A DNA stretch of 12,685 bases from positions 1 through 12,685 of the forward strand of contig JAPLMO010000484.1 of the NCBI GenBank assembly GCA_026386995.1, written 5' to 3'. This document shows positions 1-12,074 of the stretch, piece by piece. The DNA comes from Planctomycetota bacterium. GTDB lineage: Bacteria > Planctomycetota > Phycisphaerae > FEN-1346. How positions within the stretch are numbered: the first letter of the stretch is position 1; each line of letters starts with the position of its first letter. A program made the position numbers and the translations under genes. Below the pieces are notes generated by a model. The model was not told the origin of the DNA and made no database searches. It saw only the letters and a program-made list of their open reading frames with translations.

Positions 1-873
1 GCGGAGTACGTGCTGGCGGCCGTCTTCACGCTGGCCGAGAAAGACGGCTTCCGCGTTACGGATAAGGTTTTGGGCATCGTGGGTTGCGGCAACGTGGGCG
101 GGCGGCTCGCGCGGCTGGCGGAGGGCATCGGCATGCGGGTCCTCAGGAACGACCCGCCGCTGGCACGCGAGACAGGCGACCCGCGATATGTGTCCATCGA
201 GGCCCTGGCCGAGGCCGACATCGTTACGTTCCACGTGCCGCTGGAGCGCAGCGGGCCGGACGCCACGTATCACATGATCAACGACCAGCGGCTCGCGGCG
301 ATGAAGCGCGACGTCACGATCATGAACTCGTCGCGCGGCCGTGTGGCGGACTCGGCGGCACTCAAGAAGGCCGTGGATGCCGGCCGCATCGGATCGCTCG
401 TCCTCGACGTCTGGGAAGGCGAGCCGAACATCGACCTTGACCTTCTTGACCGGGTGCATCTGGCAACGCCGCACATCGCCGGGTATTCTTACGATGGCAA
501 GATCAACGGGACGCGGATGGTGCTGGAGGCGCTGTGCCGGCATTTCGGCCTCGCGCGCGAGTGGGACCCCGCGCCGCTCATGCCGCCGCCCGCCGTGCCG
601 CGCGTCCGGCTGCCGGGCGGCCTCTCGGTGCAGCAGGCGCTCGGGCGGGCGATCCGGGCGGCGTATGACATCGAGGCGGACGATGCGCGGCTGCGAGAGA
701 TCGCGGGCCGGCCGCCGGAGGAGCGCGGCAAATACTTCAGCACGCTCCGCAAGAAGTACCCGGTCCGCCGCGAGTTTCCGTCGATGACGGTCGAACTTGC
801 AGCGCCCGACGCGGCCGTTGAAGCGGCGATCAGGGCGCTGGAATTTTGCGTCGAGATTCGCACCAACATTTAG
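1..873 (+). CDS. pdxB: Erythronate-4-phosphate dehydrogenase, 3' portion
   Basis: This enzyme oxidises 4-phospho-D-erythronate in the DXP-dependent route to pyridoxal phosphate and belongs to the NAD-dependent D-2-hydroxyacid dehydrogenases. The frame is open at the left edge, so the gene starts outside the window. Numbering from the GTG at 10, the Rossmann motif GIVGCGNVG lies at 22-30. The catalytic triad is visible as R109 (SSRG), E138 (WEGEP) and H155 (TPHIAGYS). The R-to-E spacing of 29 and the E-to-H spacing of 17 match E. coli PdxB R208/E237/H254. By that alignment roughly 96 N-terminal residues are missing. The C-terminal part (YDIEADDARLREI, RKKYPVRREFPS) matches the PdxB-specific dimerisation domain, which separates it from SerA and D-lactate dehydrogenase. 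The last codon and the TAG stop lie inside a REP element (see 867-900). Confidence 0.93.
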   Translation, partial: AEYVLAAVFTLAEKDGFRVTDKVLGIVGCGNVGGRLARLAEGIGMRVLRNDPPLARETGDPRYVSIEALAEADIVTFHVPLERSGPDATYHMINDQRLAAMKRDVTIMNSSRGRVADSAALKKAVDAGRIGSLVLDVWEGEPNIDLDLLDRVHLATPHIAGYSYDGKINGTRMVLEALCRHFGLAREWDPAPLMPPPAVPRVRLPGGLSVQQALGRAIRAAYDIEADDARLREIAGRPPEERGKYFSTLRKKYPVRREFPSMTVELAAPDAAVEAAIRALEFCVEIRTNI

Positions 874-900
874 CCGCGGTGCTTGCACCGCGCGTTTTTT
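867..900 (+). repeat. REP element A, overlaps the pdxB stop codon; terminator-like
   Basis: The conserved left flank CATTTAGC is followed by an 8-bp perfect stem CGCGGTGC (875-882), loop TT, GCACCGCG (885-892), then CG and six T (895-900). It is the same family as the copies around the RAYT gene, but with a different stem sequence that still pairs fully. The TAG of the flank is the pdxB stop codon. A GC-rich stem followed by a T-run is also the form of a rho-independent terminator, so this copy could end pdxB transcription. Confidence 0.85.
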
Positions 901-944
901 GACGAGCACGCGTGCGTTGTGCCAGGGGGCGGAAGGAACACGCC

Positions 945-959
945 GTGATTATCGGCTAA
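945..959 (+). other. Four-codon start-stop frame (GTG ATT ATC GGC TAA) upstream of the larA-like gene
   Basis: A good ribosome binding site, GGAAGGA (931-937), stands 7 bases before GTG 945. That frame reads V-I-I-G, then TAA at 957-959, then continues in the same frame as G-H-K-E-G and directly into the racemase ORF. The text on both sides of the stop reads like the normal N-terminus of a LarA-type protein. The TAA may be a nonsense mutation, a sequencing error, or a minimal leader ORF that couples translation to GTG 975. Confidence 0.6.
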
Positions 960-974
960 GGCCACAAAGAAGGC

Positions 975-2195
975 GTGCTGCCCGATACCGAGGTGCAGGA
1001 CCTTTGCAGGCACGCCCTGGTAGGCCTGGACCTGAAGGGCAAGCGCGTCCTGGTGCTGATACCCGACTCGACGCGCACGGCGCCGGTGGGCCTCATGTTT
1101 CGGACGCTGGTGGGCCTGGTGTCGCGGCGGGTGGCGAAGATCGATTTTCTGATCGCCCTCGGCACGCACATGCCGATGAGCGAGGAGAAGATCCTCAAAC
1201 TCCTCAATATGACGGCCGAGGAGCGCAAGAAAAAGTACGCGAAGGTCGGCATCTTCAACCACGCATGGGACGACCCGAAGGCCCTGACGACCCTCGGCAC
1301 CCTGACGGCCGCCGAGATGGACGCCCTGAGCGGCGGCCGCTACGCGCGCGACGTGCCCGTCGAGATCAACCGGCGCCTTCTGGACTACGACCGGCTGTTT
1401 ATCGTCGGGCCGACGTTCCCGCACGAGGTCGTCGGGTTCTCGGGCGGCCACAAGTACCTCTTCCCCGGCGTCGCGGGGGCCGAGATCATCAACTTCTTCC
1501 ACTGGCTGGGCGCCCTGGTGACGAACTGGGAGATCAACGGCGTCAAGGACACCGTGGTGCGGCGGGTGATCGACCGGGCGGTGGAATTCGTCAAGGTCCC
1601 GATCACGAGTTTCGACATGGTGGTCACGCGCGAGGGTCTCAAAGGGCTCTACATCGGCGACGCCCGCGAGGCGTTCTCCGCCGCCGCCGACCTCTCGGCC
1701 CAGGTCCACATCAAGTACGACGACCGCCAATACAAGCGCATCCTGGGCATCGCGCCGCTGATGTACGACGACCTCTGGACCGCCGGCAAGGTGATGTACA
1801 AACTGGAGCCCATCGTGGCCGACGGCGGCGAACTCATCATCTACGCCCCGCACATCGGCGAGGTTTCGCACACGCACGGCAAGACGATCGACTGCATCGG
1901 TTACCATTGCCTGGACTACTTCCGCGAGCAGATGGACAAGTTCTCGGACATTCCCGGCGGCATCATGGCCCACTCCACGCACGTGCGCGGCCTGGGCACG
2001 TACTGCAACGGCATCGAGAAGCCGCGTATCGCGGTGACGCTGGCCACCGGCATCTCCGAGGAGCGCTGCCGCAGGATCAACCTCGGGTACATGGACCCTA
2101 AGAGCATCCGTGCGGCAGAGTGGATCGGCCGCGAGAAGGAAGGCATCCTCCTGGTGGACCACGCGGGCGAGGTGCTGCATCGGGTAAAGGCTTAA
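975..2195 (+). CDS. LarA-family nickel-dependent racemase/epimerase (DUF2088)
   Basis: LarA proteins racemise or epimerise 2-hydroxyacids in the cytoplasm using a nickel pincer cofactor attached to a lysine. Numbering from GTG 975, the first start after an in-frame TAA, the key residues are D31-x-x-R34 (PDSTRTAP, LarA D72/R75), H65 (LGTHMPMS, LarA H108), H150 (TFPHEVVGF, LarA H174) and K160 (FSGGHKYLFPG, cofactor lysine K184). The H150-to-K160 spacing of ten equals that in LarA. A histidine-rich stretch, PHIGEVSHTHG, follows near residue 290. The substrate cannot be told: this superfamily contains racemases for several sugar acids as well as lactate. No LarB, LarC or LarE cofactor gene is in the window. 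GTG 975 has no well-spaced ribosome site of its own, and the better signal is at 931-947, cut off by the stop. It lies 23 bp before pfp, so the two are probably co-transcribed. Confidence 0.88.
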   Translation: MLPDTEVQDLCRHALVGLDLKGKRVLVLIPDSTRTAPVGLMFRTLVGLVSRRVAKIDFLIALGTHMPMSEEKILKLLNMTAEERKKKYAKVGIFNHAWDDPKALTTLGTLTAAEMDALSGGRYARDVPVEINRRLLDYDRLFIVGPTFPHEVVGFSGGHKYLFPGVAGAEIINFFHWLGALVTNWEINGVKDTVVRRVIDRAVEFVKVPITSFDMVVTREGLKGLYIGDAREAFSAAADLSAQVHIKYDDRQYKRILGIAPLMYDDLWTAGKVMYKLEPIVADGGELIIYAPHIGEVSHTHGKTIDCIGYHCLDYFREQMDKFSDIPGGIMAHSTHVRGLGTYCNGIEKPRIAVTLATGISEERCRRINLGYMDPKSIRAAEWIGREKEGILLVDHAGEVLHRVKA

Positions 2196-2218
2196 GATCA
2201 AGAAAGAGCGTTCGAGAC

Positions 2219-3511
2219 ATGGCCAAGGCGAAGAACGTGGTCGTTGCGCAATCCGGCGGGCCGTCGCCCGTCATCAACAACTCCATCCGCGGCGTCGTCG
2301 AGACGTGTTTCGCGATGCCCGAGAAGTTCGGGACCGTGTATGCCGCATGGCACGGCATCGAGGGCGTCCTGAAGGAGGAACTTCTGGACCTCTCGGCCCA
2401 GCCGCGCGAAGAGGTCGCGCTGCTGCGCACCACGCCGGCCGCCGGCGCGATCGGCACGTGCCGCTATAAACTTAAGGCCCAGAACGCCGAGGACTTCGCC
2501 CGCGTCATCGATGTGCTGAAGGCCCACAACGTCGGCTACTTCTTCTACACCGGCGGCAACGACTCGATGGACACCGCCAACAAGATCGCCCAACTGGCGG
2601 CCCAGCGCGGCCTGGACCTCGCGGCCACCGGCGTCCCGAAGACCATAGATAACGACGTCGGCGACACCGAGTTCAAACTCATCGACCACACCCCAGGCTA
2701 CGGCAGCGTGGCCCGATACTGGGCCTTATGCGTCCAGACCGCGAACGAGGAGAACATGGGCTCATGCCCGGCCGACCCCGTGCTCGTCATGCAGGCGATG
2801 GGCCGCAAGATCGGTTTTATCCCGGCCGCCGCACGCCTGGCCGACCCCCAGCGCGAACTGCCGCTGCACATCTACCTGGCGGAGGCCGACATCACGCTGG
2901 AGCAACTGGCCGACGAGGTGAGCGATGAACTCCGCGCCAGCGGCCGCTGCATGGTCGTCATCAGCGAGGGCTTCAGCGTGGGCGACATCGCCGCACGCAA
3001 AGATTCTTTCGGCCACGTGCAATTCTCGTCCTCCGGCACGACCGTGGCCCAGGTGGTCGTGAACTTCCTGAACGACAAGGGGCTGCCCGTCGGCGGGGCG
3101 GCGCGGTGCAACGTGCCGGGTACGGACCAGCGGCACAACATGATTTACGCCTCCAACGTTGACCTCGACGAGGCGTACAAGGTGGGCCAGAAGGCCGCCT
3201 TTATCGCCGCCGAGGAAGGCAGCGGCTGGATGGCCACGATCCTGCGCGAGCCGGGCAGCGTCTACCGCGTCCGGTACGACAAGGTTCCGCTGGAGGCGAT
3301 GGCGAACTCCGAGCGGAGGTTCCCGAAGAACTGGATCGCCCCGAACAATCGCGACGTGACGGACGACTTTTTGGCGTACGCCCGTCCGCTCATCGGCGAA
3401 GACTGGGTGAGCGTGCCGCTGGTGGACGGGCGGCAGCGGTTCACTCGCTTCAGGCCGATCTTCGCCGAGAAGAAGTGCGGGGCGTACGAACTTCAGGCGA
3501 AGCGCAAATAG
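2219..3511 (+). CDS. pfp: PPi-dependent 6-phosphofructokinase
   Basis: This enzyme phosphorylates fructose 6-phosphate to fructose 1,6-bisphosphate in glycolysis, and the PPi-using type is reversible. The ATG at 2219 gives 430 residues beginning MAKAKNVVVAQSGGPSPVIN, the usual PFK N-terminus; the frame extends upstream but overlaps larA and has no family match there. Donor-site residues point to pyrophosphate: GGNDS at 112-116 places Asp115 where ATP-PFKs have glycine, and PKTIDND at 140-146 supplies Lys141 with the catalytic Asp144. MGRKIGF and VISEGFS are the sugar-phosphate and late-core motifs. Asn114 replaces the aspartate of the commoner GGDD form; I believe this variant occurs in the PPi-type clade, but that needs an alignment. 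A purine-rich AGAAAGAG (2200-2207) is a weak ribosome site. The gene follows larA after 23 bp. Confidence 0.93.
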   Translation: MAKAKNVVVAQSGGPSPVINNSIRGVVETCFAMPEKFGTVYAAWHGIEGVLKEELLDLSAQPREEVALLRTTPAAGAIGTCRYKLKAQNAEDFARVIDVLKAHNVGYFFYTGGNDSMDTANKIAQLAAQRGLDLAATGVPKTIDNDVGDTEFKLIDHTPGYGSVARYWALCVQTANEENMGSCPADPVLVMQAMGRKIGFIPAAARLADPQRELPLHIYLAEADITLEQLADEVSDELRASGRCMVVISEGFSVGDIAARKDSFGHVQFSSSGTTVAQVVVNFLNDKGLPVGGAARCNVPGTDQRHNMIYASNVDLDEAYKVGQKAAFIAAEEGSGWMATILREPGSVYRVRYDKVPLEAMANSERRFPKNWIAPNNRDVTDDFLAYARPLIGEDWVSVPLVDGRQRFTRFRPIFAEKKCGAYELQAKRK

Positions 3512-3520
3512 AAGTAATTT

Positions 3521-3557
3521 CATATTTAGCCGCCCGCCTTGGCGGGCGCGTGTTGTT
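3521..3557 (+). repeat. REP element B between pfp and the AICAR formyltransferase gene
   Basis: The left flank CATATTTAGC (3521-3530) is followed by stem CGCCCGCC (3531-3538), TT, GGCGGGCG (3541-3548), and right flank CGTGTTGTT. All 8 stem pairs are perfect. It begins 10 bp after the pfp stop, in forward orientation, so a hairpin would form in any transcript running from pfp into the next gene. Confidence 0.9.
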
Positions 3558-3601
3558 ACACGAGGCTCAAAATCGCGACTGGTCAAAGAAAGGCACTGCC
3601 G

Positions 3602-4777
3602 ATGAGCAAAGAGATTGTGCTGCGTTACGGCATGAACCCGCACCAGAAACCCGCCCGCGTGTTCGTGGCGGAGGGCGAGTTGCCGCTGGAAGTGCTCAGC
3701 GGCTCGCCCGGCTTCATCAACATCCTCGACGCGCTGAACGCGTGGGCCCTGGTGAAGGAACTCCGCCAGGCCCTCGGGCGTCCGGCGGCGGCATCGTTCA
3801 AGCACGTCAGCCCGGCCGGCGCGGCCGTGGCCGAAGTGCTCTCGGACGCCGAGAAGAAGGCCGCGTTCGTCGAAGACATGCCGGACCTCTCGCCCTTGGC
3901 CGTGGCGTACGCGCGGGCGCGCGGGGCCGACCGCATGTCGAGTTTCGGCGACTTCGCGGCCTTCAGCGACCGCGTGGACGCCTCGACCGCCGAACTGGTG
4001 GCCCGCGAGGTCTCCGACGGCTGCATCGCCCCCGGCTACGACGCCGATGCCCTGAAAATCCTCCGCGAGAAGCGCGGCGGCAAGTACTGCGTGCTGGCCA
4101 TCGACGCGAACTTTCAGCCCCCGGCCACCGAGAGCCGCATGGTCTACGGCATCTGGCTCGAGCAGGCCCGCAACGCGGCCATCCCCGGGCCGGACCTCTG
4201 CAAGAACATCGTCACCAGGCAGAAGGACCTGCCGCCGTTCGCGGTGCGCGACCTGGTGGTGGCCACGGTGGCGCTGAAGTACACGATGTCAAACTCCGTG
4301 GCGTTCGCCAGGAACGGCCAGTGCATCGGCATCGGCGCGGGGCAACAATCGCGCGTCCACTGCACGCGCCTGGCGGGCTCGAAGGCCGACATCTGGTGGC
4401 TACGGCAGCACCCGCGCATCCTGGAGGCGAAGTTCAAGGACGGCATCTCGCGGGCCGAGAAGAACAACGCCATCGACCAGTATTTGCTCGATCACCCCAC
4501 GCCGTTTGAAAAGAAGGTCTCGAAGCAGGCGTTCGCAACGGCCCCGAAGCCGCTGTCGTCAAAAGAACGGCGCGAGTGGCTGGAGCAACTCGACGGCGTC
4601 AGCCTCTCGAGCGACGCGTTCTTCCCGTTCCGCGACTCGATCGACCGTGCCGCGCAGTCCGGCGTCCGCTACGTCCTCCAGCCGGGCGGCAGCGACCGCG
4701 ACGACGCGGTCATCCAGGCGTGCGAGCAGCACGGCATGGTGATGGCGATGAGCGGCCTCAGGCTGTTTCATCACTAA
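3602..4777 (+). CDS. Stand-alone AICAR formyltransferase (C-terminal half of PurH)
   Basis: It transfers a formyl group from 10-formyl-tetrahydrofolate to AICAR, the penultimate step of de novo IMP synthesis. The 391-residue protein begins directly at the AICARFT domain (LRYGMNPHQKPA, residues 7-18). The catalytic Lys67-His68 pair lies in FKHVSPAG, followed by CIAPGYD, KYTMSNSVAFARNGQ, IGIGAGQQSRVHCTRLAG, FFPFRDSIDRA, and the invariant C-terminal GLRLFHH. The MGS-like IMP cyclohydrolase domain of about 200 residues that precedes this in bifunctional PurH is absent, and nothing upstream in any frame resembles it. IMP ring closure must therefore be encoded elsewhere. The ribosome site is AAAGAAAGG (3585-3593) before ATG 3602. 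A REP hairpin separates it from pfp, so co-transcription with pfp is uncertain. Confidence 0.95.
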   Translation: MSKEIVLRYGMNPHQKPARVFVAEGELPLEVLSGSPGFINILDALNAWALVKELRQALGRPAAASFKHVSPAGAAVAEVLSDAEKKAAFVEDMPDLSPLAVAYARARGADRMSSFGDFAAFSDRVDASTAELVAREVSDGCIAPGYDADALKILREKRGGKYCVLAIDANFQPPATESRMVYGIWLEQARNAAIPGPDLCKNIVTRQKDLPPFAVRDLVVATVALKYTMSNSVAFARNGQCIGIGAGQQSRVHCTRLAGSKADIWWLRQHPRILEAKFKDGISRAEKNNAIDQYLLDHPTPFEKKVSKQAFATAPKPLSSKERREWLEQLDGVSLSSDAFFPFRDSIDRAAQSGVRYVLQPGGSDRDDAVIQACEQHGMVMAMSGLRLFHH

Positions 4778-4780
4778 CGG

Positions 4781-4813
4781 CACACGCGCCCGCCAAGGCG
4801 GGCGGCTAAATAT
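4781..4813 (-). repeat. REP element C (reverse)
   Basis: On the minus strand it reads ATATTTAGC, stem CGCCCGCC, TT, GGCGGGCG, CGTGTG. The stem sequence is the same as element B. It starts 3 bp after the stop of the AICAR formyltransferase gene. Confidence 0.9.
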
Positions 4814-4817
4814 TGAT

Positions 4818-4860
4818 GCCGTTCACATTTAGCCGCCCTGCTTGCATGGCGCGTGTTTTG
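4818..4860 (+). repeat. REP element D with extended left flank
   Basis: The extended flank GCCGTTCACATTTAGC (4818-4833) is followed by CGCCCTGC, TT, GCATGGCG (4844-4851) and CGTGTTTTG. The stem has one mismatch (C4838 opposite T4847), so this copy is slightly decayed. The 10-base outer flank GCCGTTCACA recurs in elements G and H. Confidence 0.88.
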
Positions 4861-4865
4861 CCGTT

Positions 4866-4906
4866 GCGCGTAAAGCAAGCCGGGCAATCTAAGTGCGAAC
4901 GACCTC
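4866..4906 (-). repeat. Decayed REP element (reverse)
   Basis: Lined up with element H, this stretch keeps CGCG, GCAAGC, GGGC, CTAAGTG and a diverged outer flank CGAACGACCTC. The stem no longer pairs, and there is one length difference. It completes a pattern of alternating reverse and forward copies upstream of the RAYT gene. Confidence 0.5.
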
Positions 4907-4910
4907 ATGC

Positions 4911-4946
4911 ACATTTAGCCGCCCTGCTTGCAGGGCGCGTGTTTTG
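4911..4946 (+). repeat. REP element E, immediately upstream of the RAYT gene
   Basis: ACATTTAGC is followed by stem CGCCCTGC (4920-4927), TT, GCAGGGCG (4930-4937), then CGTGTTTTG. All 8 pairs are perfect. It ends about 30 bp before the RAYT start codon. A second small dyad, TTTGCT (4943-4948) with AGCAAA (4955-4960), overlaps its right flank just before the ribosome site. Confidence 0.92.
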
Positions 4947-4975
4947 CTGTTTCAAGCAAAGCAAGGGGGCACGAT

Positions 4976-5554
4976 ATGGTCATCGCCTATCACGTCATTT
5001 TCAGCACCTATGGATTCTGGCTGCCGAATGACCCGCGGGGTTCATGGTCGGACTTCGTCGGTGCCTGGGAACTCGTTCGATTCGGCAAGGCCACCAAAGT
5101 GACCACGACTCGCTCAGTCGCCGCAGTTGCTCACGACCATTTTTTGCGGCGCGAAGCGAAGACGGCGCTTGAGCATCCGCCCGTCGCCTTTACGGGCAAG
5201 CAGGCATTGGCGGTGGGCCGCGGTTTCGCGCGAGCCGTAAAGGAAAGCGGCTACACCGTGCACGCCTGCACGATCCTGCCGGAGCACGTGCACATGGTCA
5301 TAGGCCACAGCCCTCGTTCGGTCGGCCGCATCGTGGGGCACCTGAAAGGCCGTGCAACTCAGCACCTGGCAGCCGCAGGCTTGTGGCCCGATGCCGAACG
5401 TCCCGTGTGGGGCAGGAAGGCCTGGAAGGTGTTTCTCGACTCGCCCGAGAGCGTCGCGGGCGCCATCGCCTATGTCGAAGCAAACCCCAAAAAAGAAGGC
5501 AAGCCCCGCCAGCGATGGTCGTTTGTCGGGCCGTTTATGCATGGTCGGCAATAA
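4976..5554 (+). CDS. REP-associated tyrosine transposase (RAYT, Y1 HUH family)
   Basis: RAYTs are relatives of IS200/IS605 transposases that cut and join single-stranded DNA at REP hairpins, and are usually kept as single-copy host genes. ATG 4976 follows AAGGGGG (4963-4969) and gives 192 residues. The N-terminus YHVIFSTYGFWLPNDPRGSW is typical of the family. The HUH metal-binding motif appears as H104-V-H106 in LPEHVHMVIG, and the nucleophile is most likely Y166 in IAYVEANPKKEG. Both catalytic elements are intact, so the protein is probably active. REP E lies just upstream in forward orientation, and the truncated reverse REP F starts at the stop codon, the bracketed arrangement expected for a RAYT locus. 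There is no accessory TnpB. The codons include more A/T-ending choices than the neighbouring genes (for example tat, att, tat, gga among the first fifteen), consistent with foreign origin. Confidence 0.92.
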   Translation: MVIAYHVIFSTYGFWLPNDPRGSWSDFVGAWELVRFGKATKVTTTRSVAAVAHDHFLRREAKTALEHPPVAFTGKQALAVGRGFARAVKESGYTVHACTILPEHVHMVIGHSPRSVGRIVGHLKGRATQHLAAAGLWPDAERPVWGRKAWKVFLDSPESVAGAIAYVEANPKKEGKPRQRWSFVGPFMHGRQ

Positions 5555-5571
5555 CACGCGCCCTGCAAGCA
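5553..5571 (-). repeat. REP element F (reverse), truncated
   Basis: AACACGCGCCCTGCAAGCA matches the first 19 bases of a reverse copy such as H: right flank, one stem arm, loop and the first three bases of the other arm. The rest of the stem and the TTTAGC flank are missing. The first two bases belong to the RAYT stop codon TAA. Confidence 0.75.
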
Positions 5572-5582
5572 ATGTTCAACAA

Positions 5583-5625
5583 GCCGTTCACACTTAGCCG
5601 CTCGCCTTGGCGAGCGCGTGTTGTT
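5583..5625 (+). repeat. REP element G, left half of an inverted pair (BIME-like)
   Basis: The flank GCCGTTCACACTTAGC (5583-5598) is followed by stem CGCTCGCC (5599-5606), TT, GGCGAGCG (5609-5616) and CGTGTTGTT. The stem differs from B by a compensated T-A pair in place of C-G. With element H it makes a near-symmetrical inverted pair, and the inner sequence GTGTTGTT ... AACAACAC is also complementary. Confidence 0.9.
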
Positions 5626-5637
5626 CGTAACCAACAA

Positions 5638-5679
5638 CAACACGCGCCCTGCAAGCAGGGCGGTTAAGTGTGAACGGCC
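5638..5679 (-). repeat. REP element H, right half of the inverted pair
   Basis: Read on the minus strand: GCCGTTCACACTTAAC, stem CGCCCTGC, TT, GCAGGGCG, CGTGTTG. The stem is perfect, and the flank has one change (CTTAAC for CTTAGC). It lies 4 bp beyond the stop codon of the reverse-strand HAD gene, so it could also act in the 3' end of that mRNA. Confidence 0.9.
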
Positions 5680-5683
5680 TCTT

Positions 5684-6574
5684 TTATCGCCACGGCGGCG
5701 TTTCGGGCAGCAATTTGTCGAACTCGGCGATCAGGCGGGCCTCGTACTCGCGGTCGTACCGGCCGGCGAGGAACTTCGGGCCGGCCTCACGCACGAATCG
5801 CTCCCACGACTCTTCCTCGTGGCCGGGGTTGATCGGATAAAACAGCGCCTTGTTGGCCTTGGCGGCCTTGAGGTCGCCTGGTGCGTCGCCGATCATGAGG
5901 ATGCGTTCGGGCGGGTACTTGCCGCCGGCGCCCATCGCAAGGTGGTCCTTCTTCGTGCCCATCTCCTGGCCGGCGATGATCGCCATGAACCTGGCGATGC
6001 CGTGCTCCTGCCACTCGCGCTGGAGGGCCTCGCCGGGCGTGGCCGAGACCACCATCATGTCGGCCTTGCCCGCAAGAAGTTCCAGGCTCTCGCGCACGCC
6101 GGGGAACGGCGGCACTTTCTTGACGACCTTCGCGACCATCTCGTTGATCGCCTTCGACCAGTCCAAGACCTGGGCGAGTTCCGCGTTGCCCGTCCGCTCC
6201 ACTTCTGCCGCCAGTTCGGGGTTCCCGAGGGCCTTCGCGCGGCCGGTCCACGCGGCCAGTTCCCTGAGGAGCGGAATATCGACCTTGCGCCGGATGACCT
6301 CCGACCGTTCCCTGAGGAGGTTCATCACGTGCTGGAGGGCGTGGAAGCGGTTGCAGCCGCGTTCCTGGGAGTAGAGGTTGACGAAGTCCCACGCGGCGCG
6401 GGCGTACTTCGAGACGGCCGCAAGGTCAAACTTCCAGATGGTCACGGGGCAGAAACACTCCTTGTGCTTCGGCTCCATGGTGTCGAACGCGCAGCCGTCG
6501 GAGTCGATGCCGACGAAGTACCGGCACGTGGGCTGAAACCCTTTCAGTTTCTCATGCGGATCGGGTGCGGACAC
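5684..6574 (-). CDS. HAD-superfamily hydrolase (probable phosphatase)
   Basis: HAD hydrolases use an aspartate nucleophile and Mg2+, usually to remove phosphate from small molecules. GTG 6574 is chosen because AAGGAG stands 7 bases before it; this gives 296 residues. Motif I is D24-S-D26-G in FVGIDSDG, motif II is the serine of MVVSATPGE, motif III is the lysine pair of GTKKDHL, and motif IV is GDAPGD in ILMIGDAPGDLKAA. All four are present, so the enzyme should be active. Between motifs I and II lies an unusually long cap region of roughly 150 residues containing WDFVNLYSQERGCNRFHALQ. The substrate is unknown. The gene is divergent from the SDR gene and convergent with the RAYT locus. An in-frame ATG at 6631 would start inside the palindromic element and is rejected. 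Confidence 0.85.
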   Translation of the reverse strand: MSAPDPHEKLKGFQPTCRYFVGIDSDGCAFDTMEPKHKECFCPVTIWKFDLAAVSKYARAAWDFVNLYSQERGCNRFHALQHVMNLLRERSEVIRRKVDIPLLRELAAWTGRAKALGNPELAAEVERTGNAELAQVLDWSKAINEMVAKVVKKVPPFPGVRESLELLAGKADMMVVSATPGEALQREWQEHGIARFMAIIAGQEMGTKKDHLAMGAGGKYPPERILMIGDAPGDLKAAKANKALFYPINPGHEEESWERFVREAGPKFLAGRYDREYEARLIAEFDKLLPETPPWR

Positions 6575-6612: not shown

Positions 6613-6779
6613 TGCTAGTGTAATGTTTCACTCAGATGATATCTTATCCAGGGCGACCGGGTGCCACGGCTGCGCTGTTTGCAGCCGTGCCACCGTTCGA
6701 CGCAGAGCACGGCTGCAAACAGCGCAGCCGTGGCACCCGATACCATAATGTGCGATAATTCTGAAACACTACACTAGCA
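6613..6779. mobile_element. MITE-like element 1 with 18-bp terminal inverted repeats and a 33-bp internal inverted repeat
   Basis: The left end TGCTAGTGTAATGTTTCA (6613-6630) and the right end 6762-6779 are inverted copies with one mismatch in 18. Inside, 6658-6690 and 6707-6739 are a perfect 33-bp inverted repeat separated by 16 bases. Each arm is itself a palindrome: CACGGCTGC (6665-6673), 7-base loop, GCAGCCGTG (6681-6689). The sequence between the terminal and inner repeats is not conserved between the two sides. No coding capacity is seen. A terminal TA on each side of GTG...CAC would fit the TA target of IS630/Tc1-type elements. It occupies the divergent HAD-SDR spacer. Confidence 0.75.
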
Positions 6780-7736: not shown

Positions 7737-7794
7737 GTAGCGCGGAGGTTTATCCCCCGCGCGGTCCTGCGCGGGGCACAAGGCCCCGCGCTAC
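7737..7794. repeat. Palindromic intergenic element between convergent genes, with alternative hairpins
   Basis: Outer arms GTAGCGCGG (7737-7745) and CCGCGCTAC (7786-7794) pair perfectly. Inside, CCCCGCGC (7755-7762) pairs with GCGCGGGG (7769-7776). Alternatively GCGCGGGGC (7769-7777) pairs with GCCCCGCGC (7783-7791) across a 5-base loop. The two inner hairpins exclude each other. The element sits in the 162-bp space between the SDR gene and the reverse-strand paralogue pair. It has no T-run, so it is only a possible transcription barrier. A small extra hairpin GCTAC-GTT-GTAGC lies at 7809-7821. Confidence 0.6.
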
Positions 7795-10007: not shown

Positions 10008-10063
10008 TAGATAATTGCCCGTATCCCCTCAGTTTTGGGCGATCCTTCGTCCCAAGCAGGGTG

Positions 10064-10178
10064 GCATGCCCAGCGCGCTGTTCGCTGGGCATGCTGTCGC
10101 CGCGGCCACGATTTGCGCGGCGGGTCAGGAGACCCGCCGCGCACAATACGGAAGTAGCGCTGTCATACTGACACACTA
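10064..10178. repeat. Double-hairpin element, probably an incomplete relative of the MITE-like elements
   Basis: The first hairpin has a perfect 12-bp stem, GCATGCCCAGCG (10064-10075) with CGCTGGGCATGC (10083-10094). The second has a perfect 13-bp stem, TGCGCGGCGGGTC (10114-10126) with its complement at 10131-10143. The stretch ends TGACACACTA (10169-10178), whose reverse, TAGTGTGTCA, resembles the terminal repeats of elements 1 and 2 (TAGTGTTTCA, TAGTGCGTCA). A matching left end was not found. CGCTGTT in the first loop also occurs in the arm of element 1. Confidence 0.55.
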
Positions 10179-11954: not shown

Positions 11955-12074
11955 TAGTGCGTCAGTTACGAGGGGATGTGGCACGGCTGGCTTGTCCAGC
12001 CGTGGCGGAAAGCCCGCGAGGTTTCCCACGGCTGGACAAGCCAGCCGTGCCACACCCGCTAAGGTGACGCACTA
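11955..12074. mobile_element. MITE-like element 2 with 10-bp terminal inverted repeats and a 29-bp internal inverted repeat
   Basis: TAGTGCGTCA (11955-11964) and TGACGCACTA (12065-12074) are perfect inverted ends. Inside, 11977-12005 and 12026-12054 form a perfect 29-bp inverted repeat around a 20-base centre. Each arm is a palindrome: CACGGCTGG, CTTGT, CCAGCCGTG. The layout repeats that of element 1 with different stem sequences. CGCGTGCC stands at 11945-11952 and again at 12075-12082, directly outside the right end and two bases outside the left end. No coding capacity is seen. It separates the MFS and ThuA genes and could block read-through. Confidence 0.75.

Follow-up and report, generated by a model that had tools for sequence, protein, structure and literature searches.

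A divergent planctomycete RAYT gene amid TTAG-footed REPs: a probable REPtron, and candidate guide-reading residues in its wider family

The contig JAPLMO010000484.1 of a Planctomycetota bacterium (assembly GCA_026386995.1), analysed here over its whole length of 12 685 nucleotides (hereafter the window), carries a gene for a REP-associated tyrosine transposase (RAYT) amid a group of repetitive extragenic palindromes (REPs), seven complete and one remnant (F), between positions 869 and 5668 (Table 1). The REPs were located in two ways, by a pattern scan and by a pattern-free repeat search, and both recover the same seven complete copies. Their 5′ foot, or guide, is TTAG in six of the seven complete copies and TTAA in the seventh, rather than the canonical GT[AG]G; in REP A, the TAG of the foot (871–873) doubles as the stop codon of a 2-hydroxyacid dehydrogenase open reading frame. 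A preliminary description of this DNA had already noted a foot unlike the gammaproteobacterial type and four versions of the stem, and both points hold, the stem classes being A; B and C; D, E and H; and G. The TT loop that it called constant is found in all complete elements by the pattern scan, and the single mismatch of D and the incompleteness of F were recovered by the pattern scan and the repeat search. Its eight copies with TTTAGC or CTTAGC correspond to the seven complete elements and the remnant, but REP H has the foot CTTAAC; similarly, its right flank of CGTGTT or CGTTTT is correct for most copies, with CGTTTT in A, but REP C carries CGTGTG. An Rfam scan gave no match at gathering scores.

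Table 1. The RAYT gene, its REPs and a second group of palindromes in the window
Feature	Position	Strand	Character
REP A	869..895	+	foot TTTAGC, 8-bp stem CGCGGTGC, TT loop
REP B	3525..3551	+	stem CGCCCGCC; between the PFK and AICAR-formyltransferase genes
REP C	4784..4810	-	stem CGCCCGCC, identical to that of REP B
REP D	4828..4854	+	stem CGCCCTGC, one mismatch
REP E	4914..4940	+	stem CGCCCTGC; RAYT start 35 bp further on
RAYT	4976..5554	+	192 aa; Y1 HUH open reading frame; motif H104/H106, Tyr166 in YVEANP
REP F (remnant)	about 5556..5571	-	right arm, loop and loop-adjacent left-arm bases; from the pattern-free repeat search
REP G	5593..5619	+	foot CTTAGC, stem CGCTCGCC; inverted pair with REP H
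REP H	5642..5668	-	foot CTTAAC, stem CGCCCTGC
Second-set palindrome	6665-6693	-	GTGG/GTAG foot; motif search
Second-set palindrome	7770-7794	-	GTGG/GTAG foot; motif search
Second-set palindrome	10061-10093	+	GTGG/GTAG foot; motif search
Second-set palindrome	11978-12004	+	GTGG/GTAG foot; motif search
Second-set palindrome	12027-12053	-	GTGG/GTAG foot; motif search

The stems of these REPs change while their pairing is kept. Across the seven complete window elements, 98.2% of the 56 stem cells pair (79.0% in shuffles), four of the eight pairs change on both sides, and the covariation score is 0.476, against 0.127 when shuffled. The proposal that changes at stem positions 4–7 are compensated on the opposite arm is borne out, since none of 500 shuffles attained the observed pairing percentage or score, and both are lost when the register is slid; positions 1–3 and 8 are uninformative within the window because they are invariant there. 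When the window is joined with 18 related loci (39 elements), 97.4% of cells pair, seven of the eight pairs change on both sides, and 86 cells carry a double change, compared with 22.5 in shuffles. These 39 elements are what remained of 48 eligible ones (TTAGC, a loop of 2, at least 7 of 8 pairs) after nine were removed by hand, and because they were pre-selected on TTAGC and pairing, their pairing percentage and constant foot say little; the evidence in this set is the change of letters under retained pairing.

One may argue that each stem class represents a founder family of its own, amplified unchanged, so that pairing is inherited and the covariation does not reflect active selection. Just four stem classes account for the seven window copies, several RAYTs with different stems occur in one genome (L009 and L035, both CP050848.1), and multiple stems are present in a 400-kb sample of CP050848.1. 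Nevertheless, we regard this explanation as not very likely: among the 39 elements, chosen for pairing as they were, at least three pair types occur at six of the eight pairs and five elements close the loop with a TA pair in place of CG, and the stems of REPs B and G are one compensated pair apart, as stepwise change would give. That REP stems change in a compensated way behind a constant 5′ foot is in any case established and hence ordinary: Nunvar 2010 (PMC2817692) infers selection for complementary REP mutations, Di Nocera 2013 (PMC3733652) reports that most families have stem residues with complementary alternatives, and Corneloup 2021 (PMC8266576) assayed altered and mismatched stems for two systems of group 3.

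The foot was followed in related genomes. A contig scan of genomes gave 260 relatives of the window RAYT, of which the best 80 were used; their hosts are planctomycetes by title, save L015 (bacterium) and L056 and L075 (Vicinamibacteraceae). In the window and these 80 loci, TTAGC ranks first of all 5-mers preceding hairpins, and TTAG ranks first of the recurrent 4-mers near the RAYT (29 of 81 loci). Of the 207 TTTAGC sites that lie no more than 1 kb from a RAYT, taken irrespective of stem, 82 precede a perfect 7- or 8-bp stem and only 8 a shorter perfect one (4 to 6 bp), while many of the remaining 117 start bulged stems of the form CCGCGAnnn...nnnGAGCGCGG. The preliminary description held that the fold and flanks are selected and not the stem sequence; this stands insofar as hairpin and foot are kept while stem letters vary, but the flank is not invariant across the family, as the feet GAAG, TTAA, TTCG and GTAG occur in other lineages, with RAYTs that differ to match.

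A model of the TTAGC-footed REP (R1) was matched in nine of the ten related genomes scanned, 27 to 151 times in each, and not at all in the tenth, Zavarzinella, which has another foot. Zavarzinella formosa carries 91 stem-pattern copies with TGAAGC and none with TTTAGC, so that one foot is kept throughout this single genome; the same scan in three other genomes gave 1 and 0 matches in all, too few to bear on the point. Twenty hand-picked inverted pairs of Z. formosa span 120–131 bp, with about 40 nt conserved inward from each end and a variable middle, and their ends are sharp: G precedes TGAAGC in 40 of 40, a pyrimidine precedes this G in 40 of 40, and there is little conservation from −4 outward. 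The relatives carry short, high-copy palindromes, often as inverted pairs. RAYTs of the window type are themselves patchy, being present in 13 of 392 genomes sampled from the phylum (E ≤1e-20) and in 35 of 102, 38 of 246 and 35 of 251 genomes of three orders (E ≤1e-30), in surveys that scored just 8 to 31 candidates per genome and whose order counts take in a distant cluster near E 1e-45. This second RAYT-like cluster of Planctomycetota scores far under the main family and is sometimes co-resident in the same genomes. One contig (C139 of genome G002; locus L137, the L004 genome, Planctomycetota) is syntenic with the window, at 75–81% identity over the four longest nucleotide matches, and in this comparison it has neither a REP at the A or B junctions nor a RAYT cassette. 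Taken with the stop codon that REP A supplies, these absences fit insertion in the window, although they may also reflect loss in the relative; at A and B the flanks of L137 are too diverged for an empty site to be reconstructed.

The enzyme itself has the HUH and Y---NP motifs, as H104, H106, Y166, N170 and P171 are invariant among 32 aligned sequences, and P171 is almost invariant in a more diverse set of 27. Profile and fold searches group the window protein with E. coli TnpAREP, whose fold it is predicted to share, and with IS200/IS605 transposases; the RAYT gene is flanked by its own REPs both in the window and at most related loci. Its W145–W150 loop aligns with the loop by which E. coli TnpAREP contacts the guide; the profile alignment places W145 opposite W94, residues 146, 151 and 152 opposite Q95, E100 and H101, and Tyr166 opposite Tyr115. 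PMC6006769 lists W94, Q95, E100, H101 and R104 in discussing GTAG contact, and PMC8266576 gives Q95, D100 and R104.

To relate enzyme to foot, guides were assigned locus by locus. For the window and 76 of the first loci, guides were labelled by hand with the TTAG idea in mind; L008, L017 (broken frame), L033 and L077 have no such label. A later guide caller uses DNA repeats only, and loci that it missed were hand-read from the repeats; it agrees with the hand labels in 60 of 77 cases, differs in 11 and is silent in 6, and the GTTAGC feet that it calls TAGC were tallied as TTAG. A caller based on hairpin energy was dropped (20 right, 8 wrong and 49 silent, n = 77). The 105 loci L140–L244 comprise 10 without an open frame, 30 duplicates, L152 (removed by hand), 32 that entered, among them the hand-labelled L148 and L150, and 32 without a guide call; 38 further loci (L245–L262 and L266–L285) include 2 without an open frame and 8 duplicates. 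From the uncalled and further loci, 32 entered the test set by caller or by hand and 19 have an unclear guide, none of these 19 carrying a proline at residue 152 (P152). L155, L157, L164, L187, L188, L190, L191, L244 and L260 were left unlabelled, L263–L265 were excluded, and no prediction was attached to L219 (TCAG) and L182 (TTTG).

Guides were thus obtained for 141 RAYTs: TTAG for 100, GAAG for 12, TTAA for 10, TTCG for 9, GTAG for 6 and others for 4. P152 is present in all 12 GAAG RAYTs and in none of the 129 others; at the stage of 109 rows, the counts were 7 of 7 and 0 of 102, and the guides of L208, L229 and L233 had been read from the DNA while their loops were still unseen. A rule recorded before further testing ties P152 to guides with A as base 2, predicting it there and nowhere else; 29 of its 30 predictions proved correct, including all five for GAAG. 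The loops of L151 and L160 had already been viewed, which leaves 28 blind predictions, 27 of them correct. Two further residues track the guide: K151 is found in 77 of 122 rows with T as guide base 1 and in 0 of 19 with G, and S or Q occupies residue 146 in 8 of 10 rows with C as base 3 and in 7 of 131 others. When all 197 columns are scanned, 152 is the top column for GAAG (1.3e-17, the next being 3.2e-8), 146 is top for C at base 3, and 151 is second, behind 152, for G at base 1. Of the ten TTAA rows, which form one clade, all are without A49, H53 and D54 and nine without S47, positions that hardly vary in other rows.

Residues 146, 151 and 152 are the best candidates for specificity positions. 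It is possible, and we put it forward tentatively, that planctomycete RAYTs hold a protein-to-guide code in which 151 would read base 1, 152 base 2 (V with T, and P in the GAAG context) and 146 base 3, such that the enzyme and its dispersed feet switch together and one or two substitutions could re-specify the foot. Several results count against the wider reading, a REPtron whose foot and RAYT changed together. The sole TAAG case, L269, has V152 and was the failed prediction, and therefore P152 marks GAAG and not every guide with A second. Independent GAAG/P152 pairs on well-supported branches number three in the 109-row tree (five on the best tree) and one in the 141-row tree (four on the best tree), and sign tests on them are unable to reach 0.05; the phylogenetically independent support for co-switching of guide and enzyme is modest. 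In addition, no support emerged for a cut dinucleotide that follows the guide: under an IS608-like rule (passages of PMC8266576), retargeting of cleavage would give CG cut sites for TTCG and TT for TTAA, and this idea was rejected, since within 20 nt upstream no dinucleotide tracks the guide and CG at −2/−1 is commonest in TTAG, TTAA and TTCG alike.

The scarcity of independent switches on well-supported branches and the TAAG case without P152, together with other columns that also mark the GAAG rows, if more weakly, would be expected if the link between P152 and GAAG reflected shared ancestry instead of recognition. We consider this unlikely, because the approximately unbiased (AU) test rejects the placing of all GAAG rows in one clade (p 0.0106, on a quick tree with 91 of the 141 rows: all non-TTAG plus half of TTAG), column 152 is well ahead of the next, and its counterpart in E. 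coli TnpAREP, H101, is listed with the guide-contact residues in PMC6006769. L078, a TTAG RAYT with V152, sits among the GAAG/P152 rows and is a possible reversal.

Taken as a whole, the window locus is very probably a REPtron, that is, a RAYT amid its own TTAG-footed REPs, whose foot and hairpin would be bound, cut, and copied or moved, and whose foot and RAYT would have changed together in the wider family. The observations behind it are the covariation, the enrichment of the foot before hairpins, the many copies in relatives, the linkage to RAYT genes and the sharp unit ends in one relative. By analogy with the E. coli and group 3 TnpAREP, the RAYT would bind its substrate, the foot TTAG (usually embedded as (C/T)(G/A)T-TTAG-C) plus a short hairpin, as a folded single strand through both parts; Tyr166 would then cut, and a single REP or an inverted REP pair would be copied or moved. 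Stems would drift through compensated changes because the fold matters more than the stem letters, and the foot, too, has switched repeatedly across related lineages (TTAG, GAAG, TTAA, TTCG, GTAG), probably along with the RAYT.

Some points argue otherwise. The model is matched equally well by IS200/IS605 transposases and by TnpAREP; the score against the RAYT family model NCBIfam NF047646 is 42.7 bits, under the cut-off of 80, and therefore we call the window protein a divergent RAYT, outside that model; and the REP copy number rests on the genomes of relatives rather than on the window's own. Moreover, five of the seven complete window REPs resemble terminators, they make up five of the eight terminator-like sites between 800 and 5750 (shuffles 3.9, standard deviation 2.1), and the REPs sit at gene ends or between open reading frames. 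Yet it is highly improbable that the palindromes are transcription terminators or stabilisers of mRNA 3′ ends, retained because of how the RNA folds rather than as substrates of an enzyme, since such elements have no need for the TTAGC foot that leads all 5-mers before hairpins, REP D folds poorly and still has the foot, 3′ tails in relatives are often not T-rich, and the foot is clustered around RAYT genes in relatives.

The REPtron so proposed resembles several known systems. It shares with the E. coli REPtron (TnpAREP; y, z1 and z2 REPs; group 2, subclass 2.2) the Y1 HUH nuclease fold (4er8), the Y---NP motif, REPs around the gene, a 5′ tetranucleotide foot and inverted pairs. In contrast, the foot is GTAG in E. 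coli, the enzyme has Q95, E100 and H101 where the window RAYT has G146, K151 and V152, and the window stems are perfect 8-bp stems with a TT loop, although many window relatives have bulged ones. Among the REP families treated below is that of R. baltica, which we take to be the planctomycete Rhodopirellula baltica. The GTAG REP families that include it, as described in passages of PMC3733652, have hosts of the Planctomycetes–Verrucomicrobia–Chlamydiae (PVC) group and complementary stem variants in common with the window, but are GTAG-tagged by definition. The group 3 REPtrons of Stenotrophomonas and Marinomonas likewise have short perfect palindromes, in which, according to passages of PMC8266576, many stem changes are tolerated and mismatches impair cutting; their foot is GTAG and their RAYTs are different. 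Class 3 of TnpAY1, mainly from Planctomycetes (passages of PMC6006769), shares the phylum and an atypical foot, but has a Y----Q motif and a CnGA foot, and membership of this class was rejected because the window has YVEANP and TTAG. A literature search found no paper on TTAG-footed REPs or guide-residue covariation, although prior notice in supplements or figures is possible; TTAG is absent from the main texts of PMC6006769 and PMC3733652.

These findings bear on how a RAYT and its dispersed REPs remain matched while both evolve. A family with repeated foot switches amounts to natural swap experiments, with three residues named for testing, and the co-variation of foot and enzyme may reveal how RAYT-type enzymes recognise DNA. 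On the practical side, REP searches defined by GT[AG]G would miss entire families in Planctomycetota.

A motif-directed, not blind, search of the window also gave the second set of palindromes in Table 1, with 9–12-bp stems (one mismatch allowed) and compensated arm differences; none lies among the TTAG REPs, and no RAYT for them was seen in the window. At 945–959, a lactate-racemase-like gene reads GTGATTATCGGCTAAGGC, with an in-frame TAA at 957–959, where the syntenic L137 has GTGATCATCGGCCATGGC, and its likely start region looks interrupted. As for the relatives, bulged long REPs with the TTTAGC foot are found at L016, L018, L029, L040, L076 and others and recall the bulged group 2 REPs of E. 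coli, with four switches of architecture along the RAYT tree. Single REPs stand in head-to-tail arrays beside the RAYT in L002 (about 5620–5810) and downstream of it in L069, with periods of 32 and 34 bp.

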